Part shown: one piece after another, positions 26,738 through 31,350 of the stretch
Numbering within the stretch: position 1 is the stretch's first letter
How the letters are laid out: each line of letters opens with the position of its first letter
DNA from: Halomonas sp. H10-9-1
GTDB taxonomy: Bacteria; Pseudomonadota; Gammaproteobacteria; Pseudomonadales; Halomonadaceae
NCBI RefSeq assembly: GCF_040147005.1
Contig: NZ_JAMSHO010000001.1
Coordinates: 1,488,001 to 1,552,000 of the forward strand
Reading direction: 5' to 3'
Length of the DNA stretch: 64,000 nucleotides
Position numbers and translations under genes: made by a program
The notes under the pieces: model-generated
What the model saw: only the letters and a program-made list of their open reading frames with translations
Databases searched by the model: none
What the model was told of the DNA's origin: nothing

Positions 26738-26814
26738 AGGACCATAGCTCAGTTGGTTAGAGCGCCACGTTGACATCGTGGAGGTCGGCGGTTCAAATCC
26801 GCCTGGTCCTACCA
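26738..26814 (+). tRNA. tRNA-Val (anticodon GAC), copy 1
   Basis: 77 nt including CCA. Acceptor AGGACCA pairs with TGGTCCT. The D arm is AGCTCAGTTGGTTAGAGC. The anticodon stem CCACG/CGTGG encloses loop TTGACAT with GAC at the anticodon position. The T arm is GGCGG-TTCAAAT-CCGCC. The CCA end is encoded. It is identical to the copy 25 nt downstream. Confidence 0.97.
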
Positions 26815-26839: not shown

Positions 26840-26916
26840 AGGACCATAGCTCAGTTGGTTAGAGCGCCACGTTGACATCGTGGAGGTCGGCGGTTCAAAT
26901 CCGCCTGGTCCTACCA
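26840..26916 (+). tRNA. tRNA-Val (anticodon GAC), copy 2
   Basis: Base-for-base identical to the first copy over 77 nt including CCA. The spacer is 25 nt and not similar to the tRNA, so the pair is a clean tandem duplication transcribed from one promoter, followed by a hairpin at 26924. Confidence 0.97.
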
Positions 26917-27625: not shown

Positions 27626-28414
27626 TTACTTCCAGCCGGGCACCGCCTGGGCACCGAACAGCTCCGCCGCCTTGGCCTCGACCTCCTCGGTCTGGTAGGC
27701 CTTGACCAACTGCTGGATCGCCTCGCGCTCCTCGTCGCCGCCCCGCACCGCGATCAGGTTGACGTAGGGCGATTCCGGGCCCTCCTTGATCAGGGCGTCA
27801 TCCAGGGTCAGGCCGGCAGGCTGGGCAAAGGTGTTGTTGATGAAGGCCATGTCGACGTCGGGCAGCACCCGCGGGAGCTGGGCGGCCTCGATCTCGCGGA
27901 ACTCGAAGTCGCGCGGGTTGGCGGCGATGTCCAGCGGCGTGGCTTCCAGATTCTCCGGGTCGGCCAGCTCGAGCATGCCGAGGTTGTGCATCAGGATAAG
28001 CGCGCGCCCCTCGTTGGAGGGGTCGTTGGGCAGGGCGATGGTGGCGCCGTCCGGCAGCTCGTCGATGCTGTCGTACTTCTCGGAGTACGCGCCGATCGGG
28101 TAGACGAAGGTGTAGCCGGCGATGGCGAAGTCATAGCCGCGATCCTCGACCATGGAGCGCATGTAGGGCTCGTGCTGGTAGGCATTGGCGTCGAGGCTGC
28201 CGTCGGCCAGGGCGGCGTTGGGCGTCACGTAGTCGGTGAACTCGATGATCTCCACCTCGAGGCCGTATTCGCGCTCGGCGATTTCGGCGGCCACCTCCAT
28301 GACCTGGGTCTCGGGGCCGGCGACGGTGCCGATCTTGATGGCATGATCGTCGGCCAGCGCGCTGCCCAGGGGCAGGGTAGAGGCGAGCAGGGTGGCGAGC
28401 AGTGTCTTGCGCAT
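27626..28414 (-). CDS. metQ: Methionine ABC transporter substrate-binding protein
   Basis: 262 aa of the NlpA/MetQ family: IKIGTVAGPETQVMEVAAEIA, the YQHEPYM motif, LPNDPSNEGRAL and a binding-pocket FINNTFA. The signal peptide MRKTLLATLLASTLPLGSALA has no lipobox cysteine and a signal-peptidase I site at ALA-DD, so the protein should be soluble in the periplasm rather than a lipoprotein. It is the last gene of metNIQ and lies 225 nt after metI, with a palindromic element between. Confidence 0.92.
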   Translation of the reverse strand: MRKTLLATLLASTLPLGSALADDHAIKIGTVAGPETQVMEVAAEIAEREYGLEVEIIEFTDYVTPNAALADGSLDANAYQHEPYMRSMVEDRGYDFAIAGYTFVYPIGAYSEKYDSIDELPDGATIALPNDPSNEGRALILMHNLGMLELADPENLEATPLDIAANPRDFEFREIEAAQLPRVLPDVDMAFINNTFAQPAGLTLDDALIKEGPESPYVNLIAVRGGDEEREAIQQLVKAYQTEEVEAKAAELFGAQAVPGWK

Positions 28415-28639: not shown

Positions 28640-29293
28640 TTATTTGTGGTCGCTCTTGCGAACGAGATAATCCCCCAGGCTCTGGAAGCCCTGCACCATG
28701 ACCACCAGGATCACCACGGTAATCAGCATGATGGTGGGATTGAAGCGATTGTAGCCGTAGCGGATCCCGAGGTCGCCCAGGCCGCCGCCACCGACGGCGC
28801 CGGCCATGGCCGAGTAGCTCACCAGGGTCACGATGGTGATGGTGAGCGCGGTGAAGATGCCGCCTCGGGCCTCCGGCAACAGCACCTTGGCGATGATCTG
28901 CCAGGGCGTGGCCCCCATGGACTGGGCGGCCTCCACCAGCCCCGGGTTGATCTCGTTGAGCGCGCCCTCCACCAGCCGTGCGATGAACGGAATGGCGGCG
29001 ATGGTCAGTGGCACGGCGGCGGCGTTGGTGCCGATGGAGGTGCCCACCAGCATCCGCGTGAAGGGAATGATCGCCACCATCAGGATGATGAAGGGGATCG
29101 AGCGGCCGATATTGGTGATGATGCCCAGTGCGCCGTTGAGTGCCGACTGGGCCAGCACCTGGCCGGGGCGGGTGACATAGAGCAGCACCCCCAGCGGGAT
29201 GCCCACCAGAGCCGAGATCACCCCGGAGATGGCCACCATGTAGAGAGTGTCGAGAGTCGCCTCGAGGATCAGTTCAAGCATTGCGCTGGACAT
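28640..29293 (-). CDS. metI: Methionine ABC transporter permease
   Basis: 217 aa, the length of E. coli MetI. Five or so membrane helices and the binding-protein-dependent permease EAA loop (ALNEINPGLVEAAQSMGATPWQII). MetI and MetN form the membrane complex for D- and L-methionine import. I chose ATG 29293 (MSSAMLELILEATLDTLYMV), which overlaps metN by 20 nt; ATG 29281 is an alternative. Confidence 0.93.
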   Translation of the reverse strand: MSSAMLELILEATLDTLYMVAISGVISALVGIPLGVLLYVTRPGQVLAQSALNGALGIITNIGRSIPFIILMVAIIPFTRMLVGTSIGTNAAAVPLTIAAIPFIARLVEGALNEINPGLVEAAQSMGATPWQIIAKVLLPEARGGIFTALTITIVTLVSYSAMAGAVGGGGLGDLGIRYGYNRFNPTIMLITVVILVVMVQGFQSLGDYLVRKSDHK

Positions 29294-30335
29294 GGCCGAG
29301 CACCTCCACGTGAAGATCATGGGATTCGAGATAGTCGAGGGCCTCGAGGGTCTTCTCCGCCGGCCCCATCAGCTCGGCGATCATCAGCCCCAGGGTGCGT
29401 TCCTGGATCGACTCCACCTTGGCCTGCAGGATGCTGACGTCGACGCCGCACTCCCGGGCCAGGCGCGACACCAGTGGTGAGGCCACGGCGTCGCCGCGAA
29501 AGGCCAGGCGTACCACTGGGTGGGTGTTATGGCCCGGGGACGCCTCGAGTCGCTCGATCAGTGCCCGGGGGGGCTCCAGCTTGAGGAAGTCGTTGAGGAA
29601 CTCGCGGCCCAGCCGGGTCTGCGGGGCGGTGAAGAAGTCGCCCACATCGGCCTCCTCCACCAACTCGCCGTCGGAGATCAGGCTCACCCGATGGCAGATC
29701 GACTTGACCACCTCCATCTCGTGGGTGATCAGCAGGATGGTCAGGCCGAGCTTCTGGTTGATATCGCGCAGCAGGGCGAGGATCGAGCCGGTGGTCTGGG
29801 GGTCGAGCGCCGAGGTGGCCTCGTCGCACAGCAGTACCTTGGGGCGGCTGGCGAGTGCCCGGGCGATGGCCACGCGTTGCTTCTGGCCGCCAGAGAGCTG
29901 GGCCGGATACTGGTTCGCCTTGTCGGCGAGGCCCACCAGCTCCAGCAGCGGGGTGACCCGGCTGCGGATCTCGGCGCCCTTCATGCCCATCAGTTCCAGG
30001 GGCAGGGCCACATTGGCGAAGGCCGTGCGGTTGGTGAGCAGGTTGAAGTGCTGGAAGATCATGCCTATGCCGTGGCGCGCCTGGTTCAGCGCCTGGCGTG
30101 ACAGGCCGGTGAGTTCGCGGCCGTCGACGGTGACGGTGCCCGTGGTGGGGCGTTCCAGCAGGTTGACGCAGCGGATCAGGGTCGACTTGCCTGCGCCGGA
30201 CAGGCCGATCACGCCATGGATGCGGCCCGCGGGCACGTGGAAGTCGACATGCTTGAGCGCCGGCACGGTCCTGGCGATGCCGCCGTGTCGGCCCTTGAGC
30301 ACATAGGTCTTGGAAACGTTGTCGAGTCGGATCAT
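29274..30335 (-). CDS. metN: Methionine import ATP-binding protein
   Basis: 353 aa. Walker A GLSGAGKST, signature LSGGQKQRVAIARAL, Walker B VLLCDEATSALD, and a C-terminal NIL/ACT domain (VVRLAFRGDAVASPLVSRLA) that binds methionine and inhibits transport in MetN. ATG 30335 (MIRLDNVSKTYVLKGRHGG) is chosen; the open frame upstream runs through the terminator and is not coding. It carries a small insert RHGGIARTV near the start. Transcription is controlled by the riboswitch at 30428-30500. Confidence 0.94.
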   Translation of the reverse strand: MIRLDNVSKTYVLKGRHGGIARTVPALKHVDFHVPAGRIHGVIGLSGAGKSTLIRCVNLLERPTTGTVTVDGRELTGLSRQALNQARHGIGMIFQHFNLLTNRTAFANVALPLELMGMKGAEIRSRVTPLLELVGLADKANQYPAQLSGGQKQRVAIARALASRPKVLLCDEATSALDPQTTGSILALLRDINQKLGLTILLITHEMEVVKSICHRVSLISDGELVEEADVGDFFTAPQTRLGREFLNDFLKLEPPRALIERLEASPGHNTHPVVRLAFRGDAVASPLVSRLARECGVDVSILQAKVESIQERTLGLMIAELMGPAEKTLEALDYLESHDLHVEVLGHVQRNA

Positions 30336-30383
30336 GGATACCACCGCTGTGGGCGCCGAGGCGGGTAGTGCGGGGCAGGGGCC

Positions 30384-30411
30384 AAAAAAAAGGCCACCCT
30401 TGCGGGTGGCC
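30384..30411 (-). terminator. Attenuator terminator in the metNIQ leader
   Basis: On the minus strand, GGCCACCC and GGGTGGCC pair around GCAA, directly followed by eight T. It lies about 50 nt before the metN start codon and about 17 nt after the riboswitch core. The GGGUG at the end of the riboswitch (30430-30426) could pair with the CACCC of this stem, giving an anti-terminator. Confidence 0.9.
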
Positions 30412-30427
30412 ATCAACGCTGGACACA

Positions 30428-30500
30428 CCCTTTTAGCTGCACTTCACGCCATGACCGAGTCATGTCGCGGGCGCCCGCAAGCCGGGTTCAAATCGGCGCC
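30428..30500 (-). ncRNA. SAM-II-type riboswitch with an extra hairpin, upstream of metNIQ
   Basis: Read on the minus strand. P1 is GGCGCC (30500-30495) pairing with GGCGCC (30475-30470). Its loop GATTTGAACCCGGCTTGCG closely matches the SAM-II loop. The 3' part GTGAAGTGCAGCTAAAAGGG (30447-30428) matches the SAM-II L3/P2 region, including the conserved GCUAAAA. Between P1 and L3 sits an inserted hairpin CATGAC-TCG-GTCATG (30464-30450). A promoter precedes it and an intrinsic terminator follows, so SAM binding would stop metNIQ transcription. The fold is read by eye from remembered SAM-II examples. Confidence 0.78.
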
Positions 30501-30517
30501 ATTCAATGTAGCGGGCA

Positions 30518-30546
30518 AGCATAGGGGTAGGCCAGGAGCCTGTCAA
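30518..30546 (-). promoter_or_regulatory. Sigma-70 promoter of metNIQ
   Basis: On the minus strand TTGACA (30546-30541), a 17-nt spacer and TATGCT (30523-30518). The predicted start near 30511 puts the riboswitch about 10 nt into the transcript. Confidence 0.8.
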
Positions 30547-30720
30547 TCACGCCGGCGGCCTACCTGGCTTCTCGGTGTTAATGCCGAAATATCATTTGTT
30601 GATGTCGCGAGATATGGTGGATCTTGTGGTGTCTGGCGGCGATGGACGCGAGTGTGACGAATTGCCTACACTCGTCTTCCTTTCCAAGCCCCGTGCGGGC
30701 GTCAGCTGCCAGGAGCCGTC

Positions 30721-31350
30721 ATGTTCACCGGTATCGTCCAGGGCACCGCCGAGGTGGTGGCCATCCAGGAGGCCGAAGCCTTCCGTACCCATGTCGTCGC
30801 GTTGCCCGGGAGCCTGGGGGATGGGCTCGCGATCGGGGCCTCGGTGGCCCATAACGGCGTCTGTCTCACGGTGACCGCCATCGATGGCGAGCACGTCAGC
30901 TTCGACCTGATGCGCGAGACGCTGCGGGTCACCAACCTCGGTGAGCTGGCGATGGGCGATCGCGTCAACATCGAGCGCGCGGCGCGCTTCGGTGATGAGA
31001 TCGGCGGTCACGCCATGTCGGGCCATGTCATGGCCGTGGCCGAGTTGGCGGAGCTCGATGAGGCACCCAACAACCGCCGACTGTGGTTCGAGGTGCCCCA
31101 TGCCCTGGGGCGCTTCCTGTTCGCCAAGGGCTATATCGGTGTCGACGGGGCAAGCCTGACCATCGGTGAGGTGCGTCGTGCCACCGCCGAGCATGGCCCG
31201 CGCTTCTGCGTCGACCTGATTCCCGAGACCCTGCACCGCACCATCCTGGGCGAGCGTGTGCCCGGCGATCGGGTCAATATCGAGATCGACCCTCAGACCC
31301 AGGCCATCGTCGAGACGGTGGAGCGGGTGCTGGAGACCCGCGGCATCTAG
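30721..31350 (+). CDS. ribE: Riboflavin synthase, alpha subunit
   Basis: 209 aa. Two tandem lumazine-binding domains, each with a related start: MFTGIVQGTAEV for the first and MSGHVMAVAELAELDEA leading into the second; GVDGASLTIGEV is a family mark. It makes riboflavin from two 6,7-dimethyl-8-ribityllumazine molecules. ATG 30721 is preceded by CCAGGAGCC. It is not clustered with other rib genes, and I see no FMN riboswitch in the preceding 170 nt. An inverted repeat CGAGTGT/ACACTCG lies at 30649-30674. Confidence 0.95.
   Translation: MFTGIVQGTAEVVAIQEAEAFRTHVVALPGSLGDGLAIGASVAHNGVCLTVTAIDGEHVSFDLMRETLRVTNLGELAMGDRVNIERAARFGDEIGGHAMSGHVMAVAELAELDEAPNNRRLWFEVPHALGRFLFAKGYIGVDGASLTIGEVRRATAEHGPRFCVDLIPETLHRTILGERVPGDRVNIEIDPQTQAIVETVERVLETRGI

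Follow-up and report, generated by a model that had tools for sequence, protein, structure and literature searches.

The window, a stretch of 64,000 nucleotides from Halomonas sp. H10-9-1, carries on its minus strand the methionine transporter genes metNIQ, in the order metN (start at 30335), metI, metQ. MetN scored 450.6 bits against TIGR02314, below the curated cut-off of 499.7 though this was the best match of its frame, and MetQ reached 276.1 bits with the MetQ-specific model NF008285 (cut-off 374). A riboflavin synthase gene that starts at 30721 is divergent from the leader in front of metN. The gene models downstream and the comparison with relatives (below) bear out metNIQ as the target that had been assigned to this leader. 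Elsewhere in the window, two tRNA genes (26738-26811 and 26840-26913) lie 28 nt apart, with equal scores and identical letters in their alignments.

Table 1. Coordinates of the metNIQ leader and its downstream genes in the window.
Feature	Position	Strand	Basis
Sigma-70-type promoter TTGACA-N17-TATGCT	30518..30546	-	10/12 consensus matches
Promoter boxes TTGACA; TATGCT	30546-30541; 30523-30518	-	17 nt apart
P1 5' strand GGCGCC	30495..30500	-	sequence; P1 pairing in 74 distinct sequences
L1 and P2 5' strand GATTTGAACCCGGCTTGC	30477..30494	-	GATTT and TTGCG in 77/77 leaders; pocket positions from the available part of PMC3764141
P1 3' strand (P1') GGCGCC	30470..30475	-	sequence; P1 pairing in 74 distinct sequences
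Inserted hairpin P3, flush against the end of P1	30445..30469	-	RNAfold and covariation
L3 remainder AAGTGCA	30438..30444	-	AA[A/G]T, same register, in 76/77 leaders
P2 3' strand (P2', pseudoknot) GCTAAAAGGG	30428..30437	-	GCTAAA in 77/77 leaders
GGGTG, proposed antiterminator 5' strand, overlapping P2	30426..30430	-	pairing with terminator arm in 72 leaders
Spacer TGTGTCCAGCGTTGAT between P2' and terminator	30427-30412	-	sequence
Intrinsic terminator stem GGCCACCC-GCAA-GGGTGGCC	30392..30411	-	sequence; -17.6 kcal/mol
Terminator U8 tract (T8 in DNA)	30384..30391	-	sequence
metN, methionine ABC transporter ATP-binding protein, 353 aa	29274..30335	-	TIGR02314 best match, E 3.2e-135
metI, permease	28640..29320	-	NF008049, 257.8 bits, above cut-off 212
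metQ, substrate-binding lipoprotein	27626..28414	-	TIGR00363 (MetQ/NlpA family), 261 bits, above cut-off 228.85

Read from 30546 to 30384, the leader presents in order a promoter, P1, the SAM-II loop, P1', a hairpin, the remainder of L3, the pseudoknot strand GCTAAAAGGG, a spacer and a terminator. A preliminary description had claimed a SAM-II-type riboswitch here, and we located its promoter, P1, loop, pseudoknot strand GCUAAAAGGG and intrinsic terminator on the minus strand as it had them. The gap between the -10 box and P1 is 17 nt, and one promoter-grade site was found within 30200-30750, against a shuffle mean of 0.1. The loop strand GATTTGAACCCGGCTTGC contains the pocket nucleotides GATTT and TTGC as well as the CCC partner of the GGG in P2', and a single G separates it from P1' GGCGCC. 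The folding energy of the leader is by itself no evidence, because the whole-leader fold has a z of only -1.24, with 22 of 200 shuffles equally good (RNAfold).

At the Rfam gathering thresholds, the whole window returned two tRNAs and no riboswitch. In a permissive search, the SAM-II model (SAM_alpha, RF00521), whose gathering cut-off of 36 bits is a detection threshold and not a biological feature, gave the leader 17.6 bits in a match confined to P1 and L1 (model positions 10-42); the SAM-II long loops and SAM-V models gave no match up to E 10 within 30300-30700. Weak matches to isrD, Phe_leader and other Rfam models were attributed to chance, as they were located on the terminator or far below cut-off. 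Over the whole source genome (3.79 Mb, 99.99% complete), SAM_alpha at E <= 10 found six places, all below the cut-off: two tandem pairs, the metN leader and one (G000:C1:1946989, 14.4 bits) that was dropped as being without the motifs on reading. The control genomes matched SAM_alpha in 14/14 cases at E <= 10 (none above the cut-off), in 3/14 at E <= 0.3 and in 0/14 at E <= 0.01.

Relatives were named by a pattern scan with one genome per species, which gave 66 stretches from Halomonas species, Franzmannia, Modicisalibacter, Phytohalomonas, Larsenimonas, Halotalea, Terasakiispira and others; 18 of the 66 were given to Rfam. The SAM_alpha cut-off was passed by two, from Terasakiispira (47.8 bits) and Phytohalomonas (36.9 bits), both of them metN leaders that share the spacer and the type of terminator but do not carry the inserted hairpin. 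The hairpin-less metN leaders of Larsenimonas (L113) and Halotalea (L107) fell below the cut-off, so the hairpin is not the sole cause of the low Rfam scores; the other 14 stretches were below it as well. The two passing orthologues, the pocket nucleotides and the shared surroundings argue for the SAM-II identity of the inserted form, and among these it is the orthology that decides the matter. The preliminary description would have given up this identity if no covariance model exceeded its gathering score, and in the window none did. We judge that check too strict, given that two hairpin-less orthologues pass SAM_alpha while two others fail; on comparison with relatives the SAM-II identity holds, and SAM binding is predicted with it. 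The metN leader is nevertheless a variant of SAM-II and not a typical member, as its L3 carries a stem, P3.

We then followed the leader across the family. A core pattern demanding the pocket motifs matched 35/90 genomes of the genus and 35/201 of the family, and the reversed pattern, which served as a control, gave none in the listed rows. The strict regular expression missed 51 leaders, many with GATTTGT for GATTTGA, and the counts were redone with a covariance model, R1, made from 17 distinct inserted aptamers including that of the window (MAFFT alignment A2). R1 matched 235/275 family genomes, 219/254 of those of good quality and 20/24 genera. Four pattern matches (L075, L076, L081 and L083) were not metN leaders and were excluded.

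Altogether 77 leaders were examined, 73 with the insert and 4 without. GATTT, TTGC (as TTGCG) and GCTAAA are kept in 77/77, a conservation that is partly built in, as the R1 seeds came from a pattern demanding those motifs. In the available part of PMC3764141, the positions U10-U12, U20, U21, G22, C23 and G42-A47 are described as completely conserved and as forming the SAM pocket. A MetN-like frame lies downstream in every leader, and a promoter-like site occurs 15-18 nt before P1 in 73 of the 77, against 3/385 random stretches from the same loci. Our own scan found a terminator in 72/77 and recognised none in L176, L185, L041, L048 and L082. The P1 pairs are formed in 99.8% of cells among 74 distinct sequences, and two of the six pairs show changes on both sides. 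In P2, the three CCC/GGG pairs are possible in 17/17 sequences but invariant, hence without covariation, and a fourth, outermost pair forms in 9/17 and fails in 8/17.

The inserted hairpin had been described as 15 nt long. It exists, but its length needs correction: those 15 nt are the top of a longer, 25-nt helix P3 (CGCG-A-CATGAC-TCG-GTCATG-G-CGTG), with 10 pairs and one A.G mismatch. By folding alone, P3 of the window looks only moderately unusual, with -11.4 kcal/mol for the insert plus L3 (RNAfold) and 20/500 single-base shuffles of the insert as low; the proof comes from its relatives. In alignment A2, which was built by MAFFT without structure, 92.5% of cells in the proposed structure pair, and 46 cells show both-side changes versus a shuffle mean of 12.8, with 0/500 shuffles as high and a maximum of 17 when the partners were slid; 8/9 P3 pairs change on both sides. 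The alignment of 74 distinct sequences was made to the model and so leans toward the structure; here 91.3% of P3 cells are paired, all nine P3 pairs have both-side changes, and such changes fill 194 cells versus a shuffle mean of 49.5 and a maximum of 69 when slid. The pairing of P3 is thus strongly supported by covariation.

P3 spans 18 to 46 nt in the 73 leaders, with a widely variable sequence and loop, and the nucleotide of P3 next to P1 takes part in a pair in 60 of the 74 rows that have letters there. At its other end, P3 directly abuts AAGTGCA, which is in register (counted by hand) with A35-A41 of the SAM-II crystal structure 2QWY. AA[A/G]T stands in this register before P2' in 76/77 leaders. 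Because P3 ends directly before the in-register AAGTGCA, the part of L3 that it replaces is limited to the first few nucleotides. In the accessible portion of PMC3764141, A36 and A37 are described as forming A-minor interactions with P1. The accessory helix P3 is in no SAM-II description that we found in the literature accessible here.

When leaders were read by eye, those from 14 of the 20 matching genera had a hairpin-capable insert and those from 6 had none. On a MetN tree of 38 rows with weak deep branches, the insert label needs three changes; L266, L268, L269 and L207 are left out of this tree, as the motif search gave no MetN long enough. The tree neither supports nor opposes a single gain of P3. 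Hairpins that fold better than most shuffles also occupy this insertion point in Salinisphaera-like bacteria, in leaders of MetZ (L098, L123 and L137), and in two Spirochaetes (L134 and L153), which makes it probable that the P1-L3 junction has received an insert on more than one occasion. Other inserts folded no better than shuffles (as low in 129/500 for L149, 127/500 for L081 and 58/500 for L073), and on this count we do not claim a P3 in Herminiimonas (L149).

A pairing that is kept despite strong changes in sequence, loop and length, a start flush on P1 in those 60 rows and similar inserts at the same place in other lineages would also suit a SAM-II aptamer in which P3 has a regulatory or timing role of its own, as a pause, a protein site or a second input, and is not a passive strut. 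We consider this unlikely, as neither the loop nor any internal sequence of P3 is visibly conserved, which sets it apart from a protein or ligand site, and the leaders read from 6/20 matching genera do without it.

To return to the SAM-II riboswitch with P3 as an accessory helix, its predicted switching centers on GGGUG, which shares nucleotides with the pseudoknot strand and can pair with CACCC in the terminator's 5' arm. The antiterminator that had been proposed on this basis is upheld by its pairing across 72 leaders and by partial-transcript probabilities, its response to SAM being a prediction. Among the 72 terminator-bearing leaders, 71 have GGGTG/CACCC and one has GGGTG/CGCCC; by eye, one clearly different antiterminator was seen, GGTGTCG/CGACACC in Halotalea. 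The antiterminator and P2 pairs hardly vary and so gain little support from covariation. In transcripts ending at CACCC, the antiterminator has a mean pair probability of 0.89, with values above 0.5 in 68/75 leaders and below 0.5 in 7/75 (L041 and L082, which are without the motif, were left out). In the full transcript, the terminator amounts to -17.6 kcal/mol versus -10.6 kcal/mol for the antiterminator, and the minimum-energy structure of the whole leader contains the terminator, together with an alternative fold, even without ligand (RNAfold). The switch must therefore be kinetic, which counts against a simple equilibrium picture.

We propose that GGGUG, lying at the pseudoknot strand's 3' end, would pair with CACCC in the absence of SAM once CACCC has been transcribed; this antiterminator would occupy the 5' arm of the terminator, and RNA polymerase would continue into metN. 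With SAM, GCUAAAAGGG would be locked in the P2 pseudoknot, leaving CACCC free, such that the terminator would form and methionine uptake would be turned off. Such OFF switching is the usual logic of methionine genes. P3 would probably be stacked under P1, sparing the A-rich part of L3 in the P1 minor groove. Comparison of the leaders supports the parts, their conservation, the P3 pairing and the gene target, and from these we infer SAM binding, the direction of switching and the stacking of P3. On the whole, we hold it very probable that a SAM-II riboswitch with P3 at its P1-L3 junction acts as a transcriptional OFF switch on metNIQ. The preliminary description had seen a useful variant in an attenuating, enlarged form; the enlargement, by a conserved P3, stands, but attenuation is expected of SAM-II and not new (Corbino et al.).

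Selection probably acts on the spacer, because the sequence GGGTGTGTCCAGCGTTGATGGCCACCC is identical in 68/77 leaders whereas P3 and the loop of the terminator have drifted. The spacer TGTGTCCAGCGTTGAT is almost invariant across genera, perhaps because it acts as a pause site or pairs in part with P1. An anti-P1 pairing of the spacer GCGUU is seen in the minimum-energy fold; we did not rely on it, as L048 has lost GCGTT. In L041 (Halomonas almeriensis), the P3 aptamer is retained, the conserved spacer is lost and no terminator is seen by scan; other inverted repeats, GC-rich and with no U tract, stand there.

That the full-length minimum-energy fold retains the terminator without ligand could also point to a plain constitutive leader, with a decayed aptamer-like part and a terminator that serves only to fix a basal level or to produce a small RNA; sRNAs that are terminated leaders have been described in Sinorhizobium, as given in the available part of PMC9373788. 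However, the pocket motifs are intact in 77/77 leaders and the compensatory changes in P3 and P1 show continuing selection, and we regard such a leader as quite improbable. A pocket shifted to another ligand, such as SAH or another methionine derivative, would have in its favor that changes lie outside the pocket and that sequence alone cannot reveal a ligand, but the pocket positions listed in the accessible portion of PMC3764141 are unchanged and the target is methionine uptake, which makes a shift very improbable. A chance look-alike adjoining an ordinary terminator would explain why no SAM-II match in the window exceeds the cut-off, yet it is practically nil, already refuted by R1 in 235/275 family genomes and by the covariation, with 0 matches of the backward control pattern in the listed rows. 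Judged by its sequence and its relatives, the metNIQ leader is a real, family-wide and probably functional SAM-II attenuator with an accessory helix.

The two tandem loci of the same genome, L007 (G000:C1:749130-749318) and L008 (G000:C1:1964487-1964675), both consist of a first aptamer, a terminator-like hairpin, a second aptamer, a Shine-Dalgarno sequence and a start codon. Among 27 distinct tandem pairs in the scanned loci, the terminator region contains both a P2'-strand complement (GCTAAAGCG, with variants allowed at two positions) and a GCGGG arm in 22, and GGAG-ATG stands no more than 90 nt from the second aptamer in 25; L002, which is one of the two pairs of the genome itself, misses the P2'-complement test by one letter. 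The first tandem aptamer has a different terminator-antiterminator that follows the same logic as that of the metN leader. The accessible portion of PMC9481103 gives 44 tandem SAM-II examples and includes mixed tandems, and the tandem pairs of this genus fit the published arrangement, with the terminator first and the ribosome-binding site second; the metN element, unlike these, is single. Downstream of the tandem pairs lie genes for hypothetical proteins, one of them small (62-79 aa) and with a motif like DDIVRPELRNDAIL (12 database matches), and a second of about 210-225 aa (21 matches including itself, one labelled CHC2-type zinc finger). The named matches of both are from Halomonas, except for one Pseudomonadota MAG, and the genes beyond them vary.

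Beyond the family, we surveyed 369 sampled Gammaproteobacteria genomes, in which the weaker matches are to be taken as candidates. At E <= 0.01, R1 matched 162/369 genomes, with about 4 chance genomes expected by its own rough E-values and no control run, and SAM_alpha matched 136/369, with 30 above the cut-off and 0/14 control genomes; the two sets of genomes overlap but differ. The best-scoring 28 loci outside the family (L191-L218) have aptamers mostly below the Rfam cut-off, and 23 of them stand, by eye, before a metZ-like frame; 7 of these 23 frames and that of L137 were run on NCBIfam, and all came out as O-succinylhomoserine sulfhydrylase above cut-off. SAM-II-like aptamers were also seen in Spirochaetes (L134, L153, L102, L127 and L131), with a P3-like hairpin in L134 and L153. 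Downstream lie ahcY (L134) and metK (L102), both above the NCBIfam cut-off, and, by eye, metK-like frames in L127 and L131.

SAM-II in Gammaproteobacteria was not unknown before: in the parts of the papers available to us, PMC2258182 has it as sporadic in this class and PMC2704228 places it in Alpha-, Beta- and Gammaproteobacteria, and PMC4239095, which covers about 200 proteobacterial genomes, has SAM_alpha only in Rhizobiales and Rhodobacterales. Our literature search, with most subscription journals and supplements outside its scope, gave no report of a SAM-II/SAM_alpha riboswitch in Halomonas or of SAM-II on metN. A broader reading, which we advance tentatively and judge a little more apt to fail than to hold, takes P3 as the mark of a structural subclass of SAM-II, acquired in the Halomonadaceae and separately in the metZ leaders of Salinisphaera-like bacteria and a Spirochaete ahcY leader, stacked under P1 and tuning folding speed or affinity in an attenuator under kinetic control; within it, gammaproteobacterial SAM-II would be common on metZ and metNIQ and largely missed by the cut-off.

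With SAM-II (SAM_alpha, RF00521), the metN leader shares P1, L1, a predicted P2 pseudoknot, GATTT/TTGC/GCTAAA, a methionine gene as target, a promoter just upstream and a terminator just downstream; it differs in the covarying P3 between P1 and L3, the metNIQ target, the Halomonadaceae host and the sub-cut-off score. The SAM-II long loops (RF01726), judged by name, are likewise a SAM-II relative with enlarged parts, found in Bacteroidetes and marine samples according to the available part of PMC2864571; SAM-V of Pelagibacter has a similar pseudoknot and similar ligand nucleotides (PMC2704228, in its accessible part) and acts on translation in tandems (PMC9481103, likewise). The metN leader matches neither model up to E 10. 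In the SAM-II of S. meliloti metZ, SAM binding is likewise predicted to release an intrinsic terminator; it serves another gene, and the available part of PMC9373788 mentions no inserted stem.

SAM-II is a compact and well-studied pseudoknot, and the natural, family-wide insertion of a helix that varies while almost always staying paired reveals where added structure is tolerated by the fold or benefits it. Natural pairs of leaders with and without P3, on the same gene and with the same kind of terminator, make the effect of a peripheral helix on a kinetic riboswitch measurable. Because 136 of the 369 genomes match SAM_alpha at E <= 0.01 and only 30 do so above the cut-off, annotation pipelines that rely on the Rfam cut-off probably miss most gammaproteobacterial SAM-II. 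For the Halomonadaceae, an industrially used bacterial family, the methionine transporter gains a likely regulator.
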